DNA from: Zygaena filipendulae
Taxonomy: Eukaryota > Arthropoda > Insecta > Lepidoptera > Zygaenidae
DNA length: 64,000 nucleotides
Assembly (NCBI GenBank): GCA_907165275.2
Contig: OU015658.1
Span: 1,500,501-1,564,500 of the forward strand
Direction: 5' to 3'
The position numbers were made by a program, and so were the translations under genes. Below the pieces are notes generated by a model. The model did no database searches, was not told the DNA's origin, and was given only the letters and a program-made list of their open reading frames with translations. Shown in pieces: positions 3,847 through 56,800 of the stretch (position 1 is the stretch's first letter; every line of letters begins with the position of its first letter).

Positions 3847-4197
3847 TATTAATATTCATTTATTTATATTAAATTGAGGCTTTTTAAAGTATAAATTTAG
3901 TAAATTTAATAATTATATTAATTTAATTTAATTTATTTATTATTATTATTATAACCATTGCCGTTACTCGTTCTTCAGTGTTATGCTATTCACAAAGTTG
4001 TCGCGAGAGGACGTTTTGCTAGCTACGGCAGCGACTGTTGTACTTTTAAATAACAAAAGAAAAACAAAAAAACCAAAGCTACTAAGTTGTATAACATGTT
4101 ATTATAACCTTCAGTGTCCACATTATCTGGAACATGTATGACATGTTATGTTATATACTTAGTCTGTACGCACCTTTATATACCTAGGTATTTAACC

Positions 4198-4670
4198 GCC
4201 GCACTCAGAGTCGACTTTAATGATTACTTAGTTAAGTATAGATTTTTAAAACAAAACTGCCGCAATCAGACAAGTTTAATAAATTAATGTTAATTGGCAT
4301 TTAACTAATTAAGTTACATCTCATTAACGGCCGCACTCAGAGTCGACTTTAATGATTACTTAGTTAAGTATAGATTTTTAAAACAAAACTGCTGCAATCA
4401 GAGACGTTCAGTAAATTAATGTTAATTGGCATTTAATGAGATGTAACTTAATTAGTCAAATGCCAATTAACACTAATTTATTAAACTTATCTGATTGCGG
4501 CAGTTTTGTTTTAAAAATCTATACTTAACTAAGTAATCATTAAAGTCGACTCTGAGTGCGGCGGTAAATTCCAATTAACATTAATTTACTGAACATCTCT
4601 GATTGCGGCAATTTTGTTTTAAAAATCCATACTTAACTAAGTAATCATTAAAGTCGACTCTGAGTGCGGC
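4198..4670. mobile_element. foldback MITE nested inside a copy of itself
   Basis: Outer copy arms are 4198-4328 and 4564-4670; the inner copy, about 4326-4563, sits at the centre of the outer one between TAA repeats. Ends are GCCGCACTCAGAGTCGAC and its complement. The 3-bp TTA/TAA flanks, seen also at 40535-40770, suggest a PIF/Harbinger-type MITE. Confidence 0.82.
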
Positions 4671-7929: not shown

Positions 7930-9220
7930 CGTGGGGCGCACTATAAGTTTCCGGAATGAATATGAAAAAATACTATTAAAGGTACAAAATTAATTTATTG
8001 TTTTTCAAAATAATCTCCCTTGGCGTCTATGCACTTTTTCATTCGATGAAACCAGTTTTGAAAACTTTTGTGCCAATCCTCTGTGGTGACCTCTGAAACG
8101 TGTTTTTCATACTCCTCGACAGCCTCTTCTGGTGATGAAAATCGTTGACCGCGTAATTGGTTCTTAATTTTTGGGAACAGAAAAAAGTCACAAGGTGCCA
8201 GGTCGGGACTGTATGCAGGATGACTCATGAGTTCTACATTTTTCGCCTTCAAAAAGTCGTTTGTCTGTCTGGCCGTGTGAGAACTAGCATTGTCGTGGTG
8301 CAGGATGATACGGCGTTTACGGTTATTTTTACGGAGTTCGTCAATAACTTCCGGCAAACAAATGGTCGTGTACCAGTCACTATTCACTGTACGACGATTC
8401 TCTAAAGCAACAGTAGCCACGTGTCCAGTTTTATTAAAAAAAGAAGCAATCATCCGCTTAGATGCACTTTTCACGCGCGCCACTTTGGTTGGTTTCGGCT
8501 CATCTTGAAAGACCCATACGCTCGATTGCTGCTTTGTTTTGGGATCGTAGCAATAAATCCATGTTTCGTCACCTGTTACTATGTCTCACACCAAATTTGA
8601 CGCACCTTCGTTGAATCTGGTAAGCATGGCACTGCACCAAGTGACGCGGTCCGTTTTTTGAGCCTCGGTCAAGTTGTGTGGGATCCACCGCGAGCACAGC
8701 TTTCTCACACCCAAATGTTTGTGTAGGATTAATTGTATTTGACTCATGCCTATTTCTAAGGATGCGCGAATTTCATGGTAGGTCACATGCCTGTCTGTTT
8801 CAATCATACGGCGCACAGCATCGATGTTTTTGTTGGTCACAGCGGTGGACGGCCGACCATCGCGAGATTCGTCACTGAGATTGATACGACCACGCTTGAA
8901 TTCTGCAAACCAGCTATAAACAGTTGTCTTGCATGGTGCTTCATTGCCAAAAGCTGTTTCAAGCCGAGCGATGCTCTGTTGAGCTGTCAAATTACACTTA
9001 AAATCGTAGAAAATCATACTACGAAAATTTTCCCGAGTTAAATCCATGTTGATGCAGACACACAATTTTTTAAATGGCGCCACAAGGTAAAAACAAAAGA
9101 CAGTCAGATGAAACAAACTGCATTCTACAGCCAAAGAGTTCTATTTTCAAATGTTGCAATACATTTTTAAATATTGTTTATGTAAGTGGCCAGTTCCGGA
9201 AACTTACAGTGCGCCCTATG
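7930..9220 (-). mobile_element. complete mariner-family DNA transposon
   Basis: The element is 1291 bp, the normal size for mariner, and lies between TA target duplications (7928-7929 and 9221-9222). Its terminal inverted repeats pair well: the left end begins CGTGGGGCGCACTATAAG and the right end, read on the minus strand, begins CATAGGGCGCACTGTAAG, both continuing into TTTCCGGAA. The transposase frame fills the interior on the minus strand. A Helitron ends about 6 bp to the left (7922). The termini and the coding frame are well preserved, which suggests a fairly recent insertion. Confidence 0.95.
7995..9047 (-). pseudogene. mariner transposase, one in-frame stop
   Basis: This frame encodes the transposase that would cut and paste the surrounding element. 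I start at the Met beginning MDLTRENFRS (9047), because the upstream Met at 9134 adds residues unlike the family. The frame is 351 codons including both stops, matching the usual 345-350 residues. An N-terminal helix-turn-helix region precedes the catalytic part. The acidic triad is visible: D in TGDETW, D in LHHDNASSHTA, and D in SPDLAPCDFFLF, with exactly 34 residues between the second and third, the mariner D,D34D signature. The frame is broken once, by TGA at 8586-8588 between GASNLV and DIVTGDETW, just before the first catalytic Asp. No frameshift is needed. It is therefore probably inactive unless the stop is read through or is a sequencing error. Confidence 0.93.
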
Positions 9221-21862: not shown

Positions 21863-23624
21863 ATGGAGACCAGCAAAGACGTAGTACTTCCTCTAAGAAT
21901 AGAAGAACGTTTGAAGGAGATTATAACAAATGAAGGCTACAAACAATTCAACATCCACGTTGACATATTGCCGCCTGACGGGGGTAACTACTTAGGCATA
22001 CTCTACGAGATCACTGCGGACGGGATAGCATTCGATGGCTTGAAGAAACGCACACACTTCTTCATTAAACATTTAGGAGACTGTCGTTTGATTTTCGTCT
22101 CCGTGAAAGAAGCTTATATGAGAGAAATTTTCGCTTACAGTCATATTTTCAAGTATTTCCACGAGCTCGAAACGGAAGCTAACATACCAGTGGAAGAGCG
22201 ATACAAAACACCAAAATTTTACGGAGTAGTCGACGATAGTGCAATTATTATGGAAAATTTAACAAAGAGAGGCTTCAAAGTACCCAATAGAATGGATACC
22301 GTACCATTAAAGCTGGCAGAGTTGGCAGTAGAAAACATGGCCAAATTTCACAGCCTCGCGTTCGCTTTAGAAAAGAAACATCCGGAATTCGTCAAAAACA
22401 ACCTGCGAGATCTGGACATACTCTTCAATTTCAGTGACGAAATGAGACAGTACATGGAGAATGCCAGCAAGTATATAACGCCGTATCTGGACGAGAATAG
22501 TCGGACGAAAGTGAAGAGTTACGACGGCAAAATTTTTGACAAGTTCCGTCAAGGCTGGTTTAAGCCAACATCGGTGTCTTGTTTGTGTCATGGTGACTTC
22601 AGGCTGAGTAATATTCTTATGAGAGAAACCGTAAGTATTATATATCAGTCATGTACGATACTTCCTTTCAAGTTTCTTAGTTCAACCCAAAGTTCAGTAT
22701 GATATGATAAAGTTCAAATTATTGTTGCCATTTAACTACGTTTGTGGCGAAATAAACTTTATTATGTACTAGCTGTCCTCCGCGGTTTCACCCGCGGTAA
22801 TTTTATTTTCCCGCAGGAATTCCAGGATAAAAAGTACCCTATATCACTCAAGATCACTGTAGCTTCCTATAAGTAAAAGAATTTTCAAAATCGGTGCAGT
22901 AGATTCAGAGATTCAAAAAATTCAAAAATTCAAAAATTCAAAAATAAAAAATGATGTTAATAACAAAATTGATCCATGTCCATGGTCGAATTAAATTAAA
23001 TTAATTTATTTATTTATTAGTATTAAGTATCAAAATATCATTGTCCGCACCTCAAAAAATGCATACTAACAAAAAATGTGTTCACTTTGCTTGCAATCCT
23101 GTCGTTCTATGCCTGCTGATTCTATGACTTTTATTTTTTATTAGTATTATAATTATTATTAATAGTTGAATAGTTTTATAGGTCACAGCCGGAGTTAAAC
23201 AATAACCTTTTCATTTCAGAACGGTAAAATTGCGGACGCCATTGTAATCGACTATCAATTCATAAACTACGGCAGTCCGATGAACGATTTCTTTCTCATA
23301 ATATTCTCGTGCACAGACAAGGAATTCCGCAGAGACAACATGGAGAATTTGAAGAGGTTATACTACGGTTCCATGGAGAGATATCTGAAGTATTTGAATA
23401 TAGACGTTGAGTCTGTGTATCCAAGGGACGTGTTTGAGTCTGATTATAATGATAAGCTCGAGTTGGGGCTACCGATAGCCTTGTCGATGTCACCATTCAT
23501 TTACGTATGCAACGAAGATGCTAAGGATATCAACGACAGAGTGTTGTCCTTGAAAATGGACGACAGATACGTGGATAGGATGAGAGGAGTCATAGAAGAT
23601 TACATAGAGTGGGGATTTCTGTAG
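21863..23624 (+). CDS. CHK/ecdysteroid-kinase-like protein, two exons
   Basis: Coding exons are 21863-22630 and 23220-23624, joined in phase 0 across a GTAAGT donor (22631) and a TTTCAG acceptor. The product is 390 aa, close to the usual 400 or so for the insect EcKinase/CHK kinase-like family. These enzymes phosphorylate small molecules; in moths one member phosphorylates ecdysteroids at C-22, and others are linked to detoxification. Visible motifs are an N-lobe with KEAYMREIFAY, the hinge-like IIMENL, the Brenner loop HGDFRLSNIL (H243, D245, N250) and the metal-binding VIDYQ (D267), which is encoded just after the splice. No signal peptide, so it is cytosolic. The single intron holds a Helitron fragment. 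AATAAA at 23679 is a candidate polyA signal. The substrate cannot be deduced; the enzyme looks intact. Confidence 0.93.
22631..23219 (+). other. intron of the CHK kinase-like gene
   Basis: GT-AG intron of 589 bp. It contains a minus-oriented Helitron 3' part (22768-22916) followed by a run of degenerate AATTC/AAAAT repeats (22905-22946). Confidence 0.85.
22768..22916 (-). mobile_element. Helitron 3' part in the kinase intron
   Basis: CTAGCTGTCCTCCGCGG hairpin end through AATCGGTGCAGTAG; the 5' end is replaced by short tandem AATTC-type sequence. Confidence 0.75.
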
Positions 23625-36284: not shown

Positions 36285-36455
36285 TATTATTATTAGGTTG
36301 TAATTATTATTTTTCAATTTTTTCTTGCGATAATTAAATAATTTAAATTTATATGCTCTTAAAATGCATTTTACTGCCATTCTTATCGTAATCACTCATG
36401 TTTGAGGAGAGAAAACAATGTTATGGATTTGTTTCCGTGAGTATAGTAAGAAAAC

Positions 36456-36901
36456 ATCCCAACAAAAACATTTTCATGTAAAATGTTGCCAAGACGAGAC
36501 CATATGCCAGCACTTTCAAAAAGTTATCAGATCTTATGTAGAGCCAAGCTTCTAACTCTACACGCCTTAACTCTACAAGGTCTAACTTCACAAACTCTAC
36601 ACCTTAGTCAAAATATGTGGCTTGACCATTTCGCTACATTCACATGGCCCTTAGGCCCTAAGGTGAAAAATTGGTCCATTTTTCATTACTTTTCTGTTAT
36701 ATAATAATAGTTCACTGTAGTAACGAAACGGCCAAGCCACATATTTTGGCTAAGGTGTAGAGTTTGTGAAGTTAGACCTTGTAGAGTTAAGGCGTGTAGA
36801 GTTAGAAGCTTGGCTCTACATAAGATCTGATAACTTTTTGAAAGTGCTGGCATATGGTCTCGTCTTGGCAACATTTTACATGAAAATGTTTTTGTTGGGA
36901 T
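36456..36901. mobile_element. foldback element with near-identical ~165-bp arms
   Basis: Left arm 36456-36622 and right arm 36735-36901 are almost perfect complements (one visible C/G difference near the loop). Because of this, the same peptide frame appears on both strands. The loop is about 110 bp. Sequence to 37345, including a GGTAGTGCCC/GGGCACTACC pair (37285-37330), looks like part of a larger repeat. Confidence 0.82.
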
Positions 36902-37440
36902 TTCATTTCTTTTTGTAAGTAAAAATTGCAGAAGTCTCATACAAACTTCCATCCCCTAATTTAAGGGGTTGGGAGATAAAAGTTACAAGTTTTATAATTT
37001 TTTTGTTGTTTGTTTACTAATACTAGCTTACATACCAAATTTCAGCTTTCTAGGACATTTGGAAGTACCCTAAGAATTTTGATGATCATCAGTGAGTCAG
37101 TGACGAAATCGAGGTTTTTTAGATATCAATAAAATCTAAAGGATGGGAGCTATACAATTAAAACTTTATACATTTAATAAGTCTGCTATTGACAACATAT
37201 TCCGAAAATTTTGTTTATCTGGTATAATCCAGACCCAAGTTACAAGGGTTCAAAAAAACGACGAAACGCTTCGAGAAAAGGTAGGTAGTGCCCTTGCGCT
37301 TTGCTGGCTCGTCTTGGCGGGGGCACTACCGTGCCCCCAGATTCGTGCAGATAATATTATTTAGTAGTTACACATGGAGCTTTAGATTCATTCAAACTTC
37401 TCTTCGTAATTGGGACATGTACCTAATAAAAAAACTTCAT

Positions 37441-37570
37441 GTATGAATGGAACGGCACAAATGTAATGTTCGCGTCGGAAGCCTTCCAACAAACATGAAA
37501 TTCCATGACTTTGCGCGCTGAACGCTATTTTATGCCTATTATCTATCTCTTAATCTATTCTGCGAAGATA
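37441..37570 (+). repeat. dispersed repeat upstream of member A
   Basis: GAATGGAACGGCACAAATGT, CGCGCTGAACGCTATTTTATG. Pieces of the same repeat are seen near 18650 and 23090. Confidence 0.6.
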
Positions 37571-37681
37571 TTCTATTCTATTTTACCTTTAAAAAAAAAC
37601 ATTTTCAAATCTTTAACGAATTCCACATTAATTCCAGGAACTCTACCACTTCTTCTTGTTTTGGTCAATCTACTGTCGAAC

Positions 37682-38395
37682 ATGAAACTATTCGCTAAAT
37701 GCAAAGACGGCGACAAAGCATACGATAAACAATTCAAACTCCAGCGGTATGCGTTCAAAGATTATTTAAAAAAATTCGATCCGAGTACAGTTTACGAGAG
37801 GATAGACAGAAAAAGAAAAATCGACGGCATCACGATAAGTCCGGAGGAGGAGTTCCAACTGATGATGGAAGGCATAGACGAGACGGACGAACTCTTAGGT
37901 CTCGCAGTGAAAAATGGAAACGCTAAGATACATTTAAACAAAGACGGAAGACGATGGCGTGCGCAGCCGTCGCAGAACGAGGAGACCCTGGGATTTGACG
38001 TCTTCGATTGCAAACCGAGGCTAGAAGAGCTAATGAAAGCAGCTATATACCAGAGCAGATACAAAATGACCATAATGCAAGATCTAAGGAAGAAATATAG
38101 GAAGAGCTCGCTCTACAAAATGGGTTTTCTAATAAGCAAGCTGGACAATAAGTGCAAATCGTTTTACAAAGTGGCCAGGAGCGCGGTGAGGGCGTGCACT
38201 CTCGTCAAATACGACGTGTATTTGAACTATGCCCATATATCTCTGCACGTGCTGTCGACGAATGAAAGACTGGTAGGGCTCTGGTTCGAAATAGAGCTGT
38301 TGGTGGAGTTGTTGGAGAGAAACGATATAAAATGCAGGGAGTTTCTGGGCAACCTCACCACCGACCAAAAGATAGAGTTTGATTTTGAGGAATAA
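37682..38395 (+). CDS. uncharacterised tandem-family gene, member A
   Basis: I do not recognise a named family. I start at the Met of MKLFAKCKDGDKAYD (37682), giving 237 aa, the same length as member B. The frame is open back to 37505, but the sequence there matches a dispersed repeat also seen at 26810-26945, so the first 59 codons are unlikely to be native. The N-terminal half is charged, with an acidic patch (SPEEEFQLMMEGIDETDE). The C-terminal half is basic and predicted helical, carrying the family signature: an SRYKM motif, 21 residues, then GFLISKL and FYK. A second conserved helix follows. No signal peptide or clear membrane span, so a nuclear or cytoplasmic location is plausible. It appears intronless, with an in-frame TAA at the end. 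The function is unknown. Confidence 0.7.
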   Translation: MKLFAKCKDGDKAYDKQFKLQRYAFKDYLKKFDPSTVYERIDRKRKIDGITISPEEEFQLMMEGIDETDELLGLAVKNGNAKIHLNKDGRRWRAQPSQNEETLGFDVFDCKPRLEELMKAAIYQSRYKMTIMQDLRKKYRKSSLYKMGFLISKLDNKCKSFYKVARSAVRACTLVKYDVYLNYAHISLHVLSTNERLVGLWFEIELLVELLERNDIKCREFLGNLTTDQKIEFDFEE

Positions 38396-38550
38396 CTTCG
38401 TGAACAGGAAATTTGGTCATAAGCGCACTTATCTCATAGCCTAGTAAAGCCAAGTAAGATTTAAGTAGGTACGTATTGATATATTGTACTTACTTGATTT
38501 CGAAATACCTAATGATTAAAATATAATTGATAGCTAATGTACAAATATTA

Positions 38551-39136
38551 TTTTTCATTACTCATACTCGGAAAGTAGGTCTGAGAAGCGGGTTGAAAGT
38601 AACCCTTTTCAGCCCTAGGGAGAATCGCTTTCAACTGACAACTGTCAAATTATTAAAAAAAAACTAGGTCTATTTTCACATTTCTATTGAACCATGTTTC
38701 AACTTTCTATACAGCCAGCGCGATGTAAAATTGAAATAACGTAAAGTTTAAGTAGGTATTAATTAAAATAAAATTCACTCACTTTTTCTTAAGCTAATTC
38801 CTATTTATATTTTTTATTTTCTTTAATTAATAATTGAAGATAATATTTTTTTTAGGTCGCCAAAATGTAAATAAAAAATACTGGCTAGCTAGCCGGCCAA
38901 AGAAAAAGAAATAGGTGGGAAAGTGTCAAGCGACTATCCGATCTTCACTCATTTTTTCTTTAGCTAATTCCTATTTTTATTTTGACTTTCCTTGCATTCG
39001 TAATGAAAAGCAGTGTTACCCTCGGGAGAAAGACTTATTTAGTCCCGAGACGGGGTTTGGCGCCCGAGCGTAGCGAGGGCGCCAATAGATCGAGGACGAT
39101 CGATTACTTTCACCCCTAGGATAACAATGTACTATT
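38551..39136 (+). repeat. dispersed repeat, second copy
   Basis: Same blocks as 10783-11166 with about 200 bp more in the middle, including a repeated AATTCCTATTTTTAT block. It follows member A of the tandem family by 150 bp. Confidence 0.8.
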
Positions 39137-39218
39137 GTTACATAACGAGGTTTTTTTTTATTTTCTCGCATTACTATCTAATGTAGAGTGTTTAACTGGT
39201 GTAGGTGATCGATTACAA

Positions 39219-39424
39219 TCCTAACTATTATAAATGCGAAACTGTGTTTGTTTATTAAAATTTGTTCGTTGTTACGCTTTCACAACCGCTCAACCGACTA
39301 TCATGAAATTTTACATGTTGTCAGAGGTACAGTGAAGGACATGGGACAAAAAGTACCCACTTTTTGTCCCGGAATTCCCGCGGGAACTCCGAAATTTACG
39401 CAGGTGAAACCGCGGGGAACAGCC
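39219..39424 (+). mobile_element. Helitron
   Basis: TCCTAACTATTATAAATGCG start; the end reads GAACAGCCAC in place of CAGCTAG. Confidence 0.72.
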
Positions 39425-40534
39425 ACTAATAATTACAATGCCATAATTACCCTATATATTTAGGCACTTCTAGCCAATAAGACGATTGAAGTCGAGGGAA
39501 GCTTTAGGACTGACTGTGAGATTCTATTTTATTTAAAATTATTATCAAAATTTAATAACAAGAAAATAATATGGGTTGACAGGGTTCAGAACGAACCTAT
39601 CCTTAAAATATGTCATTCTTAGTCGCATAAAAATAATAAAATATATATATATATACAATGCCAGTAGGAAGGCTACAACGATATAGAGCGTGCCCCACTA
39701 AGCAAAGAAGTTTCAGTAACTTTGTCTATCACGAATTTGCAAGTTACAAAACAAACGTAGCAGTAACATTATGGTGATATCCAAATGCTACGTAAGCCTT
39801 TATTTTCGACTTTTCGGCAACGATCCTCACACTTGATAGGACTTTGCAAATGTACATTTGGAACATCCTCCCATTTGCGATGTTCAGCAATATTGTATAT
39901 TCTACATTGCTTAGTAGGTGCTTTTACTTTGAGACTTGTGATCACAAACTAGTAACAAATAAATAAATAAATAAATAAATAGAGCGTATTTGATCATCGC
40001 GAGTGCGAGGAAAAAGTTAATTAGGTATTTTTTTCGTGACTAATACACATATAGACTGTAATACCTCAGAGTAATAATATATACTACGTATCTATAACGA
40101 AACCCTATGGTAAACACCCTAATAAGGCCTCTTATTCACTATAACCAACAACATTCCTTGCCCATAACGCGCGTCCCAAAACGGATTTCCAAACGTTCTA
40201 AATGCCAAAATATAAAAAATTACTATTCTTTATGCCATAAGAAACGTTGTAAATTTATTTTTGAGGAGGAAAACTTCTTTGATTACAAGGGAAAGACAGT
40301 TTTTGCGGCGTCTTATCTTAACGCGGCGTGTTATGGTCATAGTGAATAAGGGCCAAGGTCACATTTGACTGCGACCGACAACATTCCATGCCCAACGCGT
40401 GCCTGTAACACGATCACAAAATATCGCAAATTACCCACATATGAGGTATAGGTAGTATTCTATTTGCAATAGGAAAGGCTATCTTTTTTTTTATTTGAAG
40501 AGACATTTCTTTGGACACGGGAAATAAATAGTTT
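39425..40534. other. intergenic, nothing recognised
   Basis: AT-rich, with an (AAAT)n run at 39956-39980. Confidence 0.5.
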
Positions 40535-40770
40535 TACCGTCGCACTCAGAGTCGACTTTAATGATTACTTAGCTAAGTAAAGATTTTAAAACAAAACTGC
40601 CCCAATCAGACTAGTTTAATAAATTAATGTTAATTGACATTTAACTAATTAAGTTACATCTCATTAAATGCCAATTTACATTAATTTACTGAACGTCTCT
40701 GATTGCGGCAGTTTTGTTTTAAAAATCTATACTTAACTAAGTAATCATTAAAGTCGACTCTGAGTGCGGC
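40535..40770. mobile_element. Harbinger-like foldback MITE, clean copy
   Basis: A single uninterrupted copy, flanked by TTA on both sides, which shows the structure expected for the outer copy at 4198-4670. Confidence 0.82.
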
Positions 40771-41934
40771 TCTTAGTCTTTGTAGCGTAGTGCAACCGAC
40801 CCGAAGCACATAAATCTTGATTTTCCTCAAAATATGAATACATAATAATTTACATGGGATAAGTAGTTGTGTAAAATTTTGCTATGACCGCTTCAACGTC
40901 TCCCATAGAGAATAATGAAATATACACTTCGCAATATATCGCAATACACTATCATTTATTTATTTATTTAAGCTTATTGCACATCAGAGTACAAAAGGCG
41001 GACTATCATATACTTAATATCCGATGTATTCAGTATTACCAACTCTTAAATAAATTTCATTTATTTATCTAACCAAAACAAAAGGAACATGGTGTTGGTA
41101 CACTAATTACATAAATACAAAATTAATAATAGTTCAGTTATAATAAAAATTCTCAGTTATTTTAATTTGTTTTATTTAATTCAATGCGAACGTTTTTTTG
41201 TACCTACAGCTTTGAAGCTTTTTTGCATTAAGCTACGGACCCCTGAAACACCAATCACGTCATAATAATTTATAGTTAGACTATATACCTACAGGGAGGT
41301 AACCAGGTAACCAGTTTCAAAAGTTTCTTTCGCGATTTTTCACGGTGCGCTTTACATAAGCTATAAAATTTAAAACGTGTTAATGACATAATAAAAATGG
41401 GAAACGCTATTATTCAATAAAAATTTAGTAGCGTAGTATAGAAAAGCCATGAAAGTAGAGTAAAGTGGGAACCACTTTACAACAACTGTTGTATCGTAAC
41501 TGCAGAAACGAGCGATAAACGAAAAAAATTGCAGCCCGTTTTAATAGTTGTTATTATTTAATATTGTCGTACCCTTATTAACAAATCAGGGTTTTATGCA
41601 AACAGTTTGATGTCACTGAAATTTTCAAAAGCATAACACGCAATGTTATGTTATTTTATGTTATTAGCATTATTGTGTGAGTATGTCGAACTGCTAGTGT
41701 CGGTAACTGGGCCGGACGGAGTCCTACTGTATTCTTTGAAATTCACCCAATAGTACCTATTTGTTAATAACTATTCGGTAATATTATATTCGGGGACTTT
41801 ATATTATAGATTTTAGAAAACACAAACGCCTACGTATTATAATTATTAGGACTCAGTAGGTATATTATAACTATGTCACGGGCAAAAAGTAAAAATTAAA
41901 AAAATAGTTATATCAGCCTGGGTATTAGGTATCA
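40771..41934. other. 5' flank of member B
   Basis: Includes a LINE-like tail (ATTTATTTAAGCTTATTGCA) at 40958. No promoter element can be defended. Confidence 0.4.
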
Positions 41935-42648
41935 ATGGAAAAAAAATCTAATTTTTCAGATATGCGTGTGTCGTCATCGGAAGACGACCGTTACGAACTG
42001 TCCTACGCTCTGTACGGCAACTTATCGACCATGGATGATATATTTCTCGAAGAGTTGAGCTCCAGTTCCAGCAGCGAGGAAGACGACGGCCCCGACAAAC
42101 CCACAACGAAACGCCCCCGACCACAATCGTGGTTCAAAAAAATCAACATCGATTCCATTAAAGAGATAGAATACGACGACACAAGCAGAAACCAAACGCT
42201 CTACGACCACGATCTGAGAGAGTTCAACGAAATCACCCGCGAGGTGAAAAACGTCACGAGACGAGCCTGGATCGAGGTGAATTACATGGACTATCAAGAG
42301 AGGTACGCGGATTTGGGCTTGACTATTGAAAACGAACTCATCAAGAAGAAAAAAATGATAGCCGTCAACCTGCAATTCCTCATTCACACCAGATACAAGG
42401 TTGTGTCGGCGTTGAAACAGAAAGATCTATGGAGAAATGCGAAAAGATACCGAATAGGATACTTGTTCAACAAGCTGAGGATTCTGAATAACCATCAGTT
42501 CAAATTCGTCCACATGATCTATGTCGAAGACGAGACGTACTATAGCAACCTCACAACACTGATTATGAATTACGAGAGAGTAGTCCGTATAGATATAGAC
42601 ATAAGGGATACAATCGACTACATTAAGGACATAAATAAAGAAAAATAA
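41935..42648 (+). CDS. uncharacterised tandem-family gene, member B
   Basis: The product is 237 aa from MEKKSNFSDMRVSSSEDD. The N-terminus is Ser/Asp-rich, with an acidic serine run (SSSSSSEEDDG) followed by a basic KRPRPQ stretch that resembles a nuclear-localisation signal. The C-terminal half holds the shared block TRYKV, then 21 residues, then GYLFNKLR, followed by a helix with NYERVVRIDIDI. The spacing of this block is identical to that in member A. There is no intron. It lies 3.5 kb downstream of A and 1.4 kb upstream of C, on the same strand. No enzymatic motif is visible. A role as a nuclear or protein-binding factor is a guess from composition only. Confidence 0.75.
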   Translation: MEKKSNFSDMRVSSSEDDRYELSYALYGNLSTMDDIFLEELSSSSSSEEDDGPDKPTTKRPRPQSWFKKINIDSIKEIEYDDTSRNQTLYDHDLREFNEITREVKNVTRRAWIEVNYMDYQERYADLGLTIENELIKKKKMIAVNLQFLIHTRYKVVSALKQKDLWRNAKRYRIGYLFNKLRILNNHQFKFVHMIYVEDETYYSNLTTLIMNYERVVRIDIDIRDTIDYIKDINKEK

Positions 42649-43492
42649 AATGATCCGTATATTAAATTTTGACATAAACAAAATAAAACGTAGGTAGGTA
42701 ATATGAAACCCGCAAAAGTGACACTTATGACACTTTTTATTTAAAAAAAATAATAATAATATGACGATTAATGACGACGTCAGAACAATAGTTATTCTTC
42801 TGAGATGACGACGGGTTGTTGACGAGTGAAAGCCGTATCAAAAACACGCGTGTCACGTATTTCGTTATTTCAGTCACTTTTCAGCATCTATTTTGGACCC
42901 TGAGCAGGAAACTGACTTTCAAAAAAGCCATGTTTTAACTTGGGAAACAATCTAACATTGTCATTGGCGATTCGCCATAATTGAAGAAGTAGATGAAGAG
43001 ATTGTTATTATTAAGAAACATTGTCATTGGCAAATTATAATTATAGACGCCATTATTAAAGAAGAAGAAGAAGAGATGACGACGTGCGACATCAATGTTG
43101 ACGAGAGTGTCGCATGCGTACTTTTTAGTTTGTAACACTTATCCGAGCGGAGCAACCGGCAAATGCTAGTTATAAATGTACCTAATTAAAACTCAATATC
43201 GTTTTTGCTGCTTTGCTAGGTAATTTTACTAATTAATGAACTGTTAAGTGCATGCATTTGGAATAAAGTACCTACCTACAGCTAGATAGCTGTAATAAAA
43301 AATTTTAATAAGAATATTATAATTATTTTTTTTTTGTCACAAAATTTTTCTTAAGCTTCCGTTTGATCATGGAGCGATTAATAGCGATTTTGAGTAAGTA
43401 AAAAGTTAATAATAATATTGAGGTATAGCTCTGCCCTTTAAAGAGGACAGAGGTGATGGTTTGAGTTCGAAATTCAAATTGTCTACTTATTT

Positions 43493-43640
43493 ACACACAG
43501 CAGCCATTGCTATTGCTATTGCCTACACACCTTTCATCTCTCGGCTGCGTTCATCACACAAGGTCCAAACCCACCGGGAATCGAACCCAGAAACTCTTAA
43601 TTAACGGGAAGGTGTCGTGACCTACTGAGTCCCGGTCATA
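43493..43640 (-). mobile_element. tRNA-headed SINE, short
   Basis: B-box complement CCGGGAATCGAACCC and the GATGAACG region are present; the tail is short. It lies between members B and C of the tandem gene family. Confidence 0.75.
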
Positions 43641-44063
43641 TGTCGCTTCGTTACGTAATAATAGTTCCCTGAGAGAAAAATACGGGCTTGATCGCTGAAG
43701 TTCGCGACCGAAAAGTTCCCTACCGAAGATTGGTCAACAGTATTTCTGGTACCGGTGTTCAGGTACCATACCATATGTGATCAGTAGGCATACTTTCCTG
43801 TAGTTTGCAAATTATTGACAACGTGCGGGGTCGGTCACTGATATTGTGTCGCCAACATATTATCCTTCAAGTACCTAACGAAGGGCGACCGAAACCTCTT
43901 CGGCCTGATAGATTTCTCTCCGTGATTTTTCTCTTAGTAGGTATAGGTATTCTTTGCCTACGTAATTAGGAGGTGGGCAGGTGAACAATGACTTCTACAT
44001 ACACCTACTTTAGCACATTTTCCATCAGTTCCAGTCCTCAACGTGTACCTCTGCTTGAGCCCG

Positions 44064-44741
44064 ATGGACGAAACGGACTTCATTTACCCCAACATAGACG
44101 ACCTGTTCGTTACGCTGACAGCGGACGAGCCCAGCAACATGACCCAGCCGCCGCTACCCGGCGTCATCACAAAGAACATATCGATCAACATTGAGAAACT
44201 TAACATGAACCGCTTCAGAAGGAAACTGCCAATGTTCAAAGAGTACATACTTGGCACCGCGAAGGATGACGTCAGCGTCATCCCGAATGTGACGCTGCCG
44301 TCGCGGCGGCAGACCCTGGGCTACCAGTCTAAATACTTGACGACCAGCCGAGACGTGTACCAACGGACCAAGGTGCTCGACATGATACTACACCTCATTT
44401 ACATGTCTCGACACAGGGTCCAGCAGATGATACACAGCGGGAAGATGACCAAATACAACATGGAGACGACGACGCCGTTCCGCATCGCGTACATCTACAG
44501 GCGGCTGAGGCCGATGCGTTTGCGCATACTCGATTTCTACTCGTCCATGGTATGGTGGTTCTGGCGCAAATCGTACATGCTCAGGCACTTCCTGTGGCAG
44601 TACCAGCAGGCTGTGCGGGTGCACACGGACTTCATATATTATTACAAGCTGGTGCTCAAACTGCATCATTTGCAGCAAACTAGGAATGAATACAACAATA
44701 CGTTGCCCACGGCGCTGTTCAAACGACCAAGGGGGCGTTGA
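44064..44741 (+). CDS. uncharacterised tandem-family gene, member C
   Basis: The product is 225 aa from MDETDFIYPNIDDLFVTL; the seven open codons before this Met lack an ATG. The N-terminus is acidic and the remainder is very basic. It carries the family block with a four-residue insertion (MSRHRV, 25 residues, then AYIYRRLR), then DFYSSM and a helix with YQQAVRVHTDF, which lines up with YERVVRIDIDI of member B. The coding sequence is visibly richer in G+C than A or B. A TTCCAG just before the Met (44030-44035) could be a splice acceptor if a 5' exon exists. The function is unknown. Confidence 0.7.
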   Translation: MDETDFIYPNIDDLFVTLTADEPSNMTQPPLPGVITKNISINIEKLNMNRFRRKLPMFKEYILGTAKDDVSVIPNVTLPSRRQTLGYQSKYLTTSRDVYQRTKVLDMILHLIYMSRHRVQQMIHSGKMTKYNMETTTPFRIAYIYRRLRPMRLRILDFYSSMVWWFWRKSYMLRHFLWQYQQAVRVHTDFIYYYKLVLKLHHLQQTRNEYNNTLPTALFKRPRGR

Positions 44742-50139: not shown

Positions 50140-50700
50140 TCACAAGGCCGAGCATCCCTCGACCCGTTTCGCCGCTTCCCATGGTTACCGCCCCGCGTCC
50201 CACTCTCCAATTCCCACCGTCCCGCATCTCGCGGCCCACCGCCCCGCGTCCCACACCGCACTGCTCATCGTGCCACATCATACGGCTTCGCGTCCCACTC
50301 TATACCGCCTAGCATCCCACGCCCCATTCCTCACACTTCACGTCCCTCGCCCAACTCCTCACGTCTCACGCCCGACTCCTCACACCTCGCGTCCCGCACC
50401 CCACTCCTCACGCCTCACTCCTCACACCTCGCGTCGCAAGACCCACTCCTCACACCTCGCGCCCCACGCTCCACTCCTCACCTCCCACGCCCCACTCCTC
50501 ACACTTCGAGTCCCACGCCTCACTCCTCACACCTCGCGTCGCAAGACCCACTCCTCACACCTCGCGCCCCACGCTCCACTCCTCACCTCCCACGCCCCAC
50601 TCCTCACACTTCGAGTCCCACGCCTCACTCCTCACACCTTACGTCCCACATCCCACTCCTTACGTTCCACGCCCCACGTCTCACACCTCCCTACCCCTAG
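50140..50700 (+). repeat. C-rich minisatellite in the LPCAT 3' flank
   Basis: Degenerate ~24-bp units built on CCCCACTCCTCACACCTCGC, with a higher-order 105-bp duplication (50431 and 50536). It begins 24 bp beyond the LPCAT stop codon, so on the minus strand it would be the 3' untranslated region unless the transcript ends at once. The 264-codon plus-strand frame here is an artefact. Confidence 0.88.
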
Positions 50701-53800: not shown

Positions 53801-56800
53801 TAGAAGATTAACAAGTAGTAATAATAGTGCGTGTAACTCCTACCTTGAAAGCGTAGACGAGCAGCTCGGCGAGCGGCGCCTGGTGCAGCGCGAGGAACGC
53901 CGCGCACACCAGGTAGTCGGGGAAGTACACCAAATTACTCGAACGCTGCAAAATAACACAGCATTTCACATTTCACATTCCGTCACACACATCATTAGAA
54001 CGAGCTAGGGGCAACTGTTTCTCAAAAATATATCAAATGCTTGTCGAGCGGCACGCCGAGCCGCCGCGCGAACTGCTCGCGCGTCACTCACCGCACCCCG
54101 CGTCACTAGTGGCTAGGGCAACTGACCCATGCGAATATGTCGAACAGCCGGCTGGCGTGCTCGTCGAGCGGCACGCCGAGCCGCCACGCCAACTGCTCGC
54201 GCGTCACTCACCGCACCCCGCGTCACTAGTGGCTAGGGCGACTGACCCGTGCGAATATGTCGAACAGCCGGCTGGCGTGCTCGTCGAGCGGCACGCCGAG
54301 CCGCCACGCCAACTGCTCGCGCGTCACTCACCGCACCCCGCGTCACTAGTGGCTAGGGCGACTGACCCGTGCGAATATGTCGAACAGCCGGCTGGCGTGC
54401 TCGTCGAGCGGCACGCCGAGCCGCCACGCCAACTGCTCGCGCGTCACTCACCGCACCCCGCGTCACTAGTGGCTAGGGCGACTGACCCGTGCGAATATGT
54501 CGAACAGCCGGCTGGCGTGCTCGTCGAGCGGCACGCCGAGCCGCCACGCCAACTGCTCGCGCGTCACTCACCGCACCCCGCGTCACTAGTGGCTAGGGCG
54601 ACTGACCCGTGCGAATATGTCGAACAGCCGGCTGGCGTGCTCGTCGAGCGGCACGCCGAGCCACCACGCCAACTGCTCGCGCGTCACTCACCGCACCCCG
54701 CGTCACTAGTGGCTAGGGCAACTGACCCGTGCGAATATGTCGAACAGCCGGCTGGCGTGCTCGTCGAGCGGCACGCCGAGCCGCCGCGCGAACTGCTCGC
54801 GCGTCACTCACCGCACCCCGCGTCACTAGTGGCTAGGGCAACTGACCCGTGCGAATATGTCGAACAGCCGGCTGGCGTGCTCGTTGAGCGGCACGCCGAG
54901 CCGCCGCGCGAACTGCTCGCGCGTCACTCACCGCACCCCGCGTCACTAGTGGCTAGGGCAACTGACCCGTGCGAATATGTCGAACAGCCGGCTGGCGTGC
55001 TCGTTGAGCGGCACGCCGAGCCGCCGCGCGAACTGCTCGCGCGTCACTCACCGCACCCCGCGTCACTAGTGGCTAGGGCAACTGACCCGTGCGAATATGT
55101 CGAACAGCCGGCTGGCGTGCTCGTTGAGCGGCACGCCGAGCCGCCGCGCGAACTGCTCGCGCGTCACTCACCGCACCCCGCGTCACTAGTGGCTAGGGCA
55201 ACTGACCCGTGCGAATATGTCGAACAGCCGGCTGGCGTGCTCGTTGAGCGGCACGCCGAGCCGCCGCGCGAACTGCTCGCGCGTCACCCACCGCGCCTCG
55301 CGCCCCGCGCCCCCGCCGGCGCTTGCCAGCTGCAGCTCCAGCTGGGACCGGTCCAGGCTACAACACACGATGCTAAACGTTAGCAGCACACACTCACAAT
55401 AAAACTGACGGTCGTTGCATCATATTGTTGCAATAATAAGTATATGTAAAGTGTGCATCCGTTGGATGAGGTAGGATTTTTCAATCTGGTACAGCGAATG
55501 ATAAGCAGCAAAGTGTTAAGAAAGATATCGTAAGTTATATTTTAGATTCTGATCTATAAAATATAACTGACGATATCTCTCTTGCTTTCTTTTTACACAG
55601 AAATGATCTGGCCTCTATCGACATCAGTTCACATCAGAAGCCGTGTCAATACACCTCAACCCGCCAATATAGCAGCAATACTGTCGAGTTACAGTCGTGT
55701 TGTCGAGTGTACAACAGTAATCCAGCGCTGGTATTTCCATACAAGCCCTAAAGCCCGACCGAATATAATATGTAATATGTAATATGTAATATGTAATATG
55801 TAATATGTAATATGTAATATGTAATATGTAATATGTAATATGTAATATGTAATATGTAATATGTAATATGTAATATGTAATATGTAATATGTAATATGTA
55901 ATATGTAATATGTAATATGTAATATGTAATATGTAATATGTGAATATTATATAAAGTGTTGTGTATGTGAATAAATATTTTAATAAGTATTCTCACCCCA
56001 GATGCGCGCGCAGGTCGGCGACCTCCATGGCGGCGGCGGCGCCGGGCACGCCCAGGTGCTTGGCGCGCGCCACCAGCCGGCAGTCGTCGTACGTGCAGTC
56101 CAGCACCGGCACGCCCAGCGCCCTGCGCCACGGGACGGGACACGACACGACGTGTCATTTATTATAAACTAGCTGTACCCCGCGGTTTCACCCGCGGTAA
56201 TTTCGGAGTTCCCGCGGGAATTCCGGAATAAAGAGTACCCTATGTCCTTCTCTGTACCCCTGACAACGTGCATGCCAAATTTCATCCAAATCCGTTTAGC
56301 CGTTTTTGCGTGATTGAGCAACAAACATCCAAACATCCAAATATCCAAACATCTAAACATCCAAACATCCACACTTTCACATTTATAATATTAGTAGGAT
56401 AATATATTAGGTATTGACACGGCACACGACACAACGTTTCAGGCACGGAACACGACACTACGTCTTAGGTACGGGACACGATACAACGTTGCATCATTTA
56501 TTTACTAGGTGTACCTATACGACTCCGCTTGCGGAGTTCCCGCGGGGATTCCGGGATAAAAGTAACCTATGTCCTTCTATATACCCCTGACAACGTGTAC
56601 GCGAAATTTTAGGATGATTGGTTAGTTATTAGTTAAGGTGTGAAAGCGTAACAAACAAATAAACTCACATTCGCATTTTTAAATGACATTAATTTTACTG
56701 CGAACTTTTTACCTTCAAAATTTCTCTCTGAATTTCAATGAGCTTGGGTGTTTCTTCATGAATAATCGAGAACTGGAATAAGTCCCTCGTTCAAAATTGC

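Follow-up and report, generated by a model that had tools for sequence, protein, structure and literature searches.

Sperm nuclear basic proteins are strongly basic, K/R-rich, and testis-expressed. In lepidopteran sperm proteomes, an unexpectedly large number of proteins show scant homology, if any, beyond Lepidoptera, according to the excerpted text of PMC5712127. An orphan sperm gene, lushu, is described from Plutella in the excerpted text of PMC11290247. The genes characterized here resemble the Lepidoptera-specific sperm proteins (PMC5712127) and lushu, by analogy only, in being small-family, lineage-restricted, and fast-evolving. Their relative in the protein database, LOC114242214 of Bombyx mandarina (181 aa; P0001), is listed as "uncharacterized," its record carries no function, and no paper was found under its name in the literature searched. 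We analyzed a 64,000-nucleotide stretch of the Zygaena filipendulae genome (here called the window; C9:1500501-1564500, in a genome of 366 Mb and 56 contigs) that holds three neighboring ORFs, labeled A, B, and C. On balance, we lean toward the interpretation that these are the 3'-terminal coding exons of an undescribed helical-domain family, taken together with the intron and germ line components set out below.

The initial annotation listed ORFs of 237, 237, and 225 aa on one strand, and these are present as listed, head to tail on the plus strand within 7.1 kb (Table 1). ORF A is an inner start within a 296-aa ORF that opens at position 37505, and the 59 codons between that position and its ATG score as noncoding (-0.451). 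The GC3 values of A, B, and C (0.58, 0.59, and 0.77, respectively) exceed the GC content of the flanks (0.33 to 0.35), and their in-frame codon log-odds are positive (0.244, 0.276, and 0.352), compared with a mean of -0.31 and a 99th percentile of 0.20 for random windows. The remaining five frames of the three ORFs are negative, with a single exception in an antisense frame of C (0.287). Order-2 simulations of the 64-kb window (n = 60) gave a mean of 0.017 ORFs of 216 aa or longer. Given the GC3 values, the log-odds, and the simulations, A, B, and C are coding ORFs.

Table 1. Loci of the family and features of A, B, and C (positions without a contig name are those of the window)
Feature	Location	Strand	Basis
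Gene A, ORF of 3'-terminal exon, 237 aa from ATG	37682..38395	+	ORF listing, codon use, leave-one-out profile
Possible exon start of A upstream of ATG, after attaattccag, phase 1	37638..37681	+	98.4th percentile; weak
Conserved domain of A, residues 111-216	38012..38329	+	nine-row alignment
Gene B, ORF of 237 aa	41935..42648	+	ORF listing, codon use, leave-one-out profile
First eight codons of B ORF, probably intron tail	41935..41959	+	acceptor score
Conserved domain of B, residues 138-235	42346..42639	+	nine-row alignment
Gene C, ORF of 225 aa	44064..44741	+	ORF listing, codon use, leave-one-out profile
C, four competing phase-1 acceptors (exon starts 44014, 44029, 44035, 44098)	44014..44098	+	acceptor score
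Conserved domain of C, residues 101-202	44364..44669	+	nine-row alignment
D, ~72 kb upstream of A	C9:1465031-1465681	same as A-C	query B, E 0.023
E, ~420 kb upstream of A	C9:1117725-1118267	same as A-C	query D, E 0.0047
F	C9:4249047-4249355	minus	query E, E 0.044
G	C21:5679093-5679368		query F, E 5.6e-6
H	C16:132558-132743		query Bombyx mandarina protein, E 0.245
I, ~2.6 kb upstream of G	C21:5675918-5676229		query G, E 8.9e-4; one pairwise match only

Pairwise alignment is significant for B and C (Smith-Waterman score of 68; 0 of 2,000 shuffles as good) and nonsignificant for A and B (56 of 2,000) and for A and C (1,143 of 2,000). Taken alone, the latter two results would fit a chance similarity arising from a helical, K/R/Y-rich composition. 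Two proteins outside the window act as bridges: D scores 84, 114, and 64 when aligned with A, B, and C (0 of 2,000 shuffles in each case), and no shuffle in 2,000 matches the score of A against the B. mandarina protein; A is therefore tied to the family. The weaker pairs are A-E (41 of 2,000), B-E (52 of 2,000), and C with the B. mandarina protein (1 of 2,000). In leave-one-out tests, in which a profile built from five of the six core proteins (A to E and the B. mandarina protein) seeks the sixth, every member was recovered, with E values of 4.5e-9 (A), 6.2e-13 (B), 5e-7 (C), 7.7e-27 (D), 2.9e-16 (E), and 1e-28 (B. mandarina protein). The weakest member scored 27.4 bits, against a ceiling of 10.6 bits for shuffled sequences (1,000 per test) and 10.1 bits for the unrelated ORFs among 2,585 six-frame ORFs. 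An earlier round with domain profiles of A to D only was weaker (A, 1.9e-6; B, 3.5e-5; C, 0.035; D, 8e-8). These profiles contradict chance similarity, as do control sequences from the PDB, which give nothing below an E value of 0.13, and that explanation deserves almost no credence. On these sequence comparisons, A, B, and C prove homologous, as initially proposed, through a link made by members outside the window. The low identity noted at the outset is likewise borne out, with 10 to 46% domain identity between rows of a nine-row alignment.

The family extends well beyond the three members initially counted. An exon-by-exon genome search placed nine loci (A to I) on three contigs (C9, C21, and C16), and more may exist. 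With C as the query, E was found at 3.9e-7, and with E as the query, C was found at 7.3e-6; G retrieved F at 4.4e-6. The B. mandarina protein retrieved D (1.1e-27), B (4.7e-7), E (1.9e-4), A (0.0014), H (0.245), F (0.73), and G (1.2); C was absent from its genome matches, and exon 2 of H, used as a genome query, matched itself only. The more distant loci were recovered by the six-member profile (A to E plus the B. mandarina protein), with E values of 5.2e-9 (F), 1.5e-6 (G), 1.5e-8 (exon 2 of H alone), and 4.1e-12 (the two H exons joined). In every case, 0 of 2,000 shuffles scored as high, and F, G, and H each scored above all shuffles and all unrelated ORFs. A profile built from F and G only recovered exon 2 of H, A, D, E, and the B. 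mandarina protein and missed B (E value of 1.8) and C (E value of 32). Profiles built without the member in question thus recovered A to E, the B. mandarina protein, F, G, and H. G and I are neighbors on C21. Weak genome matches on C23 (E value of 1.8), C26 (0.42), C14 (1.44 and 3.27), C6 (3.6), and C15 (1.52) were left uncounted.

The C-terminal block described in the initial annotation corresponds to a domain of about 100 residues (96 to 106) that is predicted to be helical. Its best columns read [YF]-[KR]-[IM]-[GAS]-[FY] (aromatic in 9 of 9 rows, I/M in 9 of 9, and G in 7 of 9), followed further on by [YF]-E-x-x-[VL]-R-x3-[DE] (E in 8 of 9 rows, D/E in 9 of 9, and R in 6 of 9). Of 895 six-frame ORFs of at least 60 aa (264 kb), only A, B, and C contain the motif first proposed, R-[YH]-[KR]...[GA]-[FY]-[LI]-x-x-[KR]-L, and shuffled sets contain it 0.005 times per set; since the pattern was derived from A, B, and C themselves, it is not independent evidence. 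Its first R is R in six of the nine rows. The spacers within it, reported as 21, 21, and 25 residues, count 19 (A), 19 (B), and 23 (C); the reported values are two too high, and the difference of 4 is right. A common charged or acidic N terminus is not found: the net charge of the N-terminal half is 0 in A, -9 in B, and +1 in C, and no convincing alignment of the members' N termini was obtained. AlphaFold models from shallow alignments of 3 or 4 rows contained helices only, at low confidence, and were not used as evidence of fold (parts of B, C, and A, pLDDT 50.3, pTM 0.31; B. mandarina protein first plus window parts, pLDDT 60.9, pTM 0.25, helices at 62-99 and 103-173). A Foldseek search of the PDB with a predicted model returned four matches, the best with an E value of 4.4.

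Searches of Pfam-A with A to E and with parts of F, G, and H gave a best E value of 0.078, with all matches under the cut-off; NCBIfam searches with the domain parts of A to E gave a best E value of 0.21 and no match over a curated cut-off; and among 177,635 PDB sequences nothing was significant (best E value of 0.13). The initial impression of a family without a database match is therefore upheld for these three resources. No title or opening of an abstract in the literature search dealt with the family. As far as these searches reach, the nine loci appear to represent an undescribed family. Searches for Rfam families and tRNAs in the window found none. The genes do stand among mobile DNA: transposase ORFs and repeats surround them, and several members have recurring repeat-derived peptides upstream, a setting that would suit copies derived from a mobile element or virus that are now domesticated or decaying. 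Such an origin is very improbable, considering that viral contigs contain no match for A, B, or C, that A to H have no Pfam match, and that the copies are few, very divergent, and open in frame, with H bearing an intron.

The three genes were initially described as intronless, a description that is probably wrong. Using a simple score of our own, we rated every AG between the point where the frame opens and the 30th codon after the start codon, and we expressed the results as percentiles relative to 13,312 AGs. The top acceptor is in phase 1 in all five of A to E, an outcome that random phases would give one time in 243. In A, the codon windows between the acceptor and the ATG are negative and turn positive at the ATG. 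In B, the best acceptor (ctaatttttcag/AT ATG; phase 1; 93.6th percentile; the best of three in the scanned stretch) falls inside the ORF, and the predicted exon would begin at 41960, the eight leading residues probably being intron. In C, the acceptor for 44098, also inside the ORF, scores best of the four candidates. The acceptors of D (atttaatattttacag/GT GCA) and E (ctccacttatag/GT GCG) are both in phase 1 and at the 99th percentile, and they are followed by 39 and 43 open codons, respectively, without Met before the first ATG. The codon scores of these two upstream stretches are raised without being decisive (387 and 199 of 3,000 random stop-free windows are as high). G has the same type of start (/GT GCC), which ranks third there, and the best site of F is in phase 2. 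H, by inspection, is split inside the domain, one exon carrying the first helix and a second exon the remainder. Its first piece, which follows cag at phase 1, ends at L043:293 with a GC-type donor (AAG/GCGAGT; an alternative GT donor lies about 40 bases on), and its second piece starts at L043:1486 in the first reading (C16:132543). With the first piece added, H scores 44.3 rather than 32.7 bits against the profile.

Because the phase-1 acceptors occur in five of five genes, the site of B lies inside its ORF, and the upstream stretches of D and E are open and free of Met, we consider it likely that a phase-1 intron precedes the ORF-bearing exon and that an upstream exon has been missed. The converse, in which A, B, and C genuinely lack introns, arose as tandem duplicates (retrocopy-derived or intron-lost), start at the listed ATGs, and have germline-biased expression, draws on the facts that each ORF has an ATG and a conserved domain complete in one exon, that the codon use of A changes at its ATG, and that the 181-aa LOC114242214 model starts at about residue 32 of D, so that no longer N terminus is annotated there. 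Set against the acceptors, the Met-free stretches, and the split in H, this alternative is distinctly unlikely. No 5' exon common to the members was identified upstream of A to H, where the search gave short, mostly repeat-like peptides. A coding-looking peptide upstream of G (L035 from 613) was not used, as no phase-1 donor was seen after it. The H exon at L043:1486-1776 (C16:132543-132833) has a GC3 of 0.99, and the preceding piece has one of 0.88, far above the 0.50 to 0.77 of A, B, C, D, F, and G.

A five-member domain profile matched LOC114242214 with an E value of 3.7e-22. This was the sole match at an E value of ≤1 among 591 candidates from 5.77 billion proteins, for a 116-residue query that admits candidates of about 64 to 203 residues only and leaves room for longer relatives. 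B alone gave no match at an E value of ≤1 among 369 candidates, and the six-row alignment gave none among 618, a result that is uninformative in that its own row P0001 was missed too. LOC114242214 shares the domain and most resembles D (67 identities over 140 aligned residues), next B (45 of 121), and then A (33 of 85); its alignment with C is poor (17 of 85). In the nine-row tree, B, D, and LOC114242214 join (80/90), as do C and E (84/89); none of the six inner branches reaches the strict support mark. LOC114242214 is likely a one-to-one orthologue of D, and, if this holds, the split between D and B would be older than the split from Bombyx.

Each protein pairs a variable N terminus with the conserved C-terminal domain of about 100 residues. 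We tentatively propose that these are small, soluble, mostly basic, intracellular assembly factors of the male germ line (sperm), which would use the helical domain to bind a protein, nucleic acid, or microtubule partner and whose copies would be specialized through their N termini. The proposed role is a guess by analogy with the abundance of lineage-specific proteins in lepidopteran sperm proteomes (PMC5712127). The initial annotation had argued for germ line bias from small, intronless, fast-evolving genes; since "intronless" is probably wrong, one support of that argument is doubtful. No 8-mer was common to at least four, and no 9- or 10-mer to at least three, of the five 300-bp stretches upstream of A to E. 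The pI values are 8.9 (A), 5.9 (B), 10.1 (C), 9.8 (D), 10.1 (E), and 9.8 (B. mandarina protein). With respect to sperm nuclear basic proteins, the pI is high in C, D, and E, but K+R amounts to only 15.6 to 19.9%, and B is acidic. Tpi is a Z marker of Lepidoptera, and the TIM family matches all fall on C54 (four of four) and never on C9. The contig carrying A to F is hence not the TIM contig, a difference from lushu, which is Z-linked (PMC11290247).

The main rival of the germ line assembly proposal is a secreted family, in which the missed upstream exon would encode a signal peptide ending at the phase-1 intron and the proteins would act in seminal fluid, hemolymph, or immunity. Phase 1 is common at signal-peptide junctions, and the predicted intron has this phase. 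Few cysteines are unusual for secreted insect proteins, and B, C, and E have none, D has one, and A has five; the search upstream of A to H, moreover, identified no such exon. We regard secretion as unlikely. Returning to assembly proteins of the germ line, a wider and rather doubtful scenario is that a lepidopteran helical domain arose from an H-like intron-bearing gene, expanded to form clusters on two or more chromosomes, and became part of lineage-specific reproduction, e.g., the formation of dimorphic sperm. Three anonymous ORFs have in any case become a defined family with a profile, a gene structure model, and a named silkmoth entry point, which opens the way to its annotation throughout Lepidoptera and to knockouts in Bombyx. 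As an orphan family, it is a familiar sort of thing rather than a new kind of system.

D and E lie on the strand of A to C without being adjacent to them, and the D-A interval contains transposase ORFs, an EcKL exon, and other ORFs. Within the window, positions 21863-22702 hold an exon of an ecdysteroid-kinase-like gene (Pfam EcKL; E value of 1.5e-26), and a long inverted repeat, foldback-like by eye, occupies 36430-36905 just upstream of A. A repeat at 4192-4670 and about 40540-40770 is related to the peptides SLKSTLSAALSLCSV and MPIYINLLNVSDCGSFVLKIYT, which recur upstream of B, D, and F, and is probably a dispersed nonautonomous element. A C-rich minisatellite of CACGCCCCACTCCTCACACC-like units (50315-50689) lies in a 2-kb block with a strong GC skew of -0.319. 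A GC-rich 120-bp tandem repeat (54038-55302; 10.5 copies; 98% matches) is open for 448 codons on the plus strand from 54037, and its weak Pfam matches look like repeat artifacts. Two minus-strand ORFs of 152 and 153 aa at 7995-9047 presumably represent halves of a mariner-type transposase.
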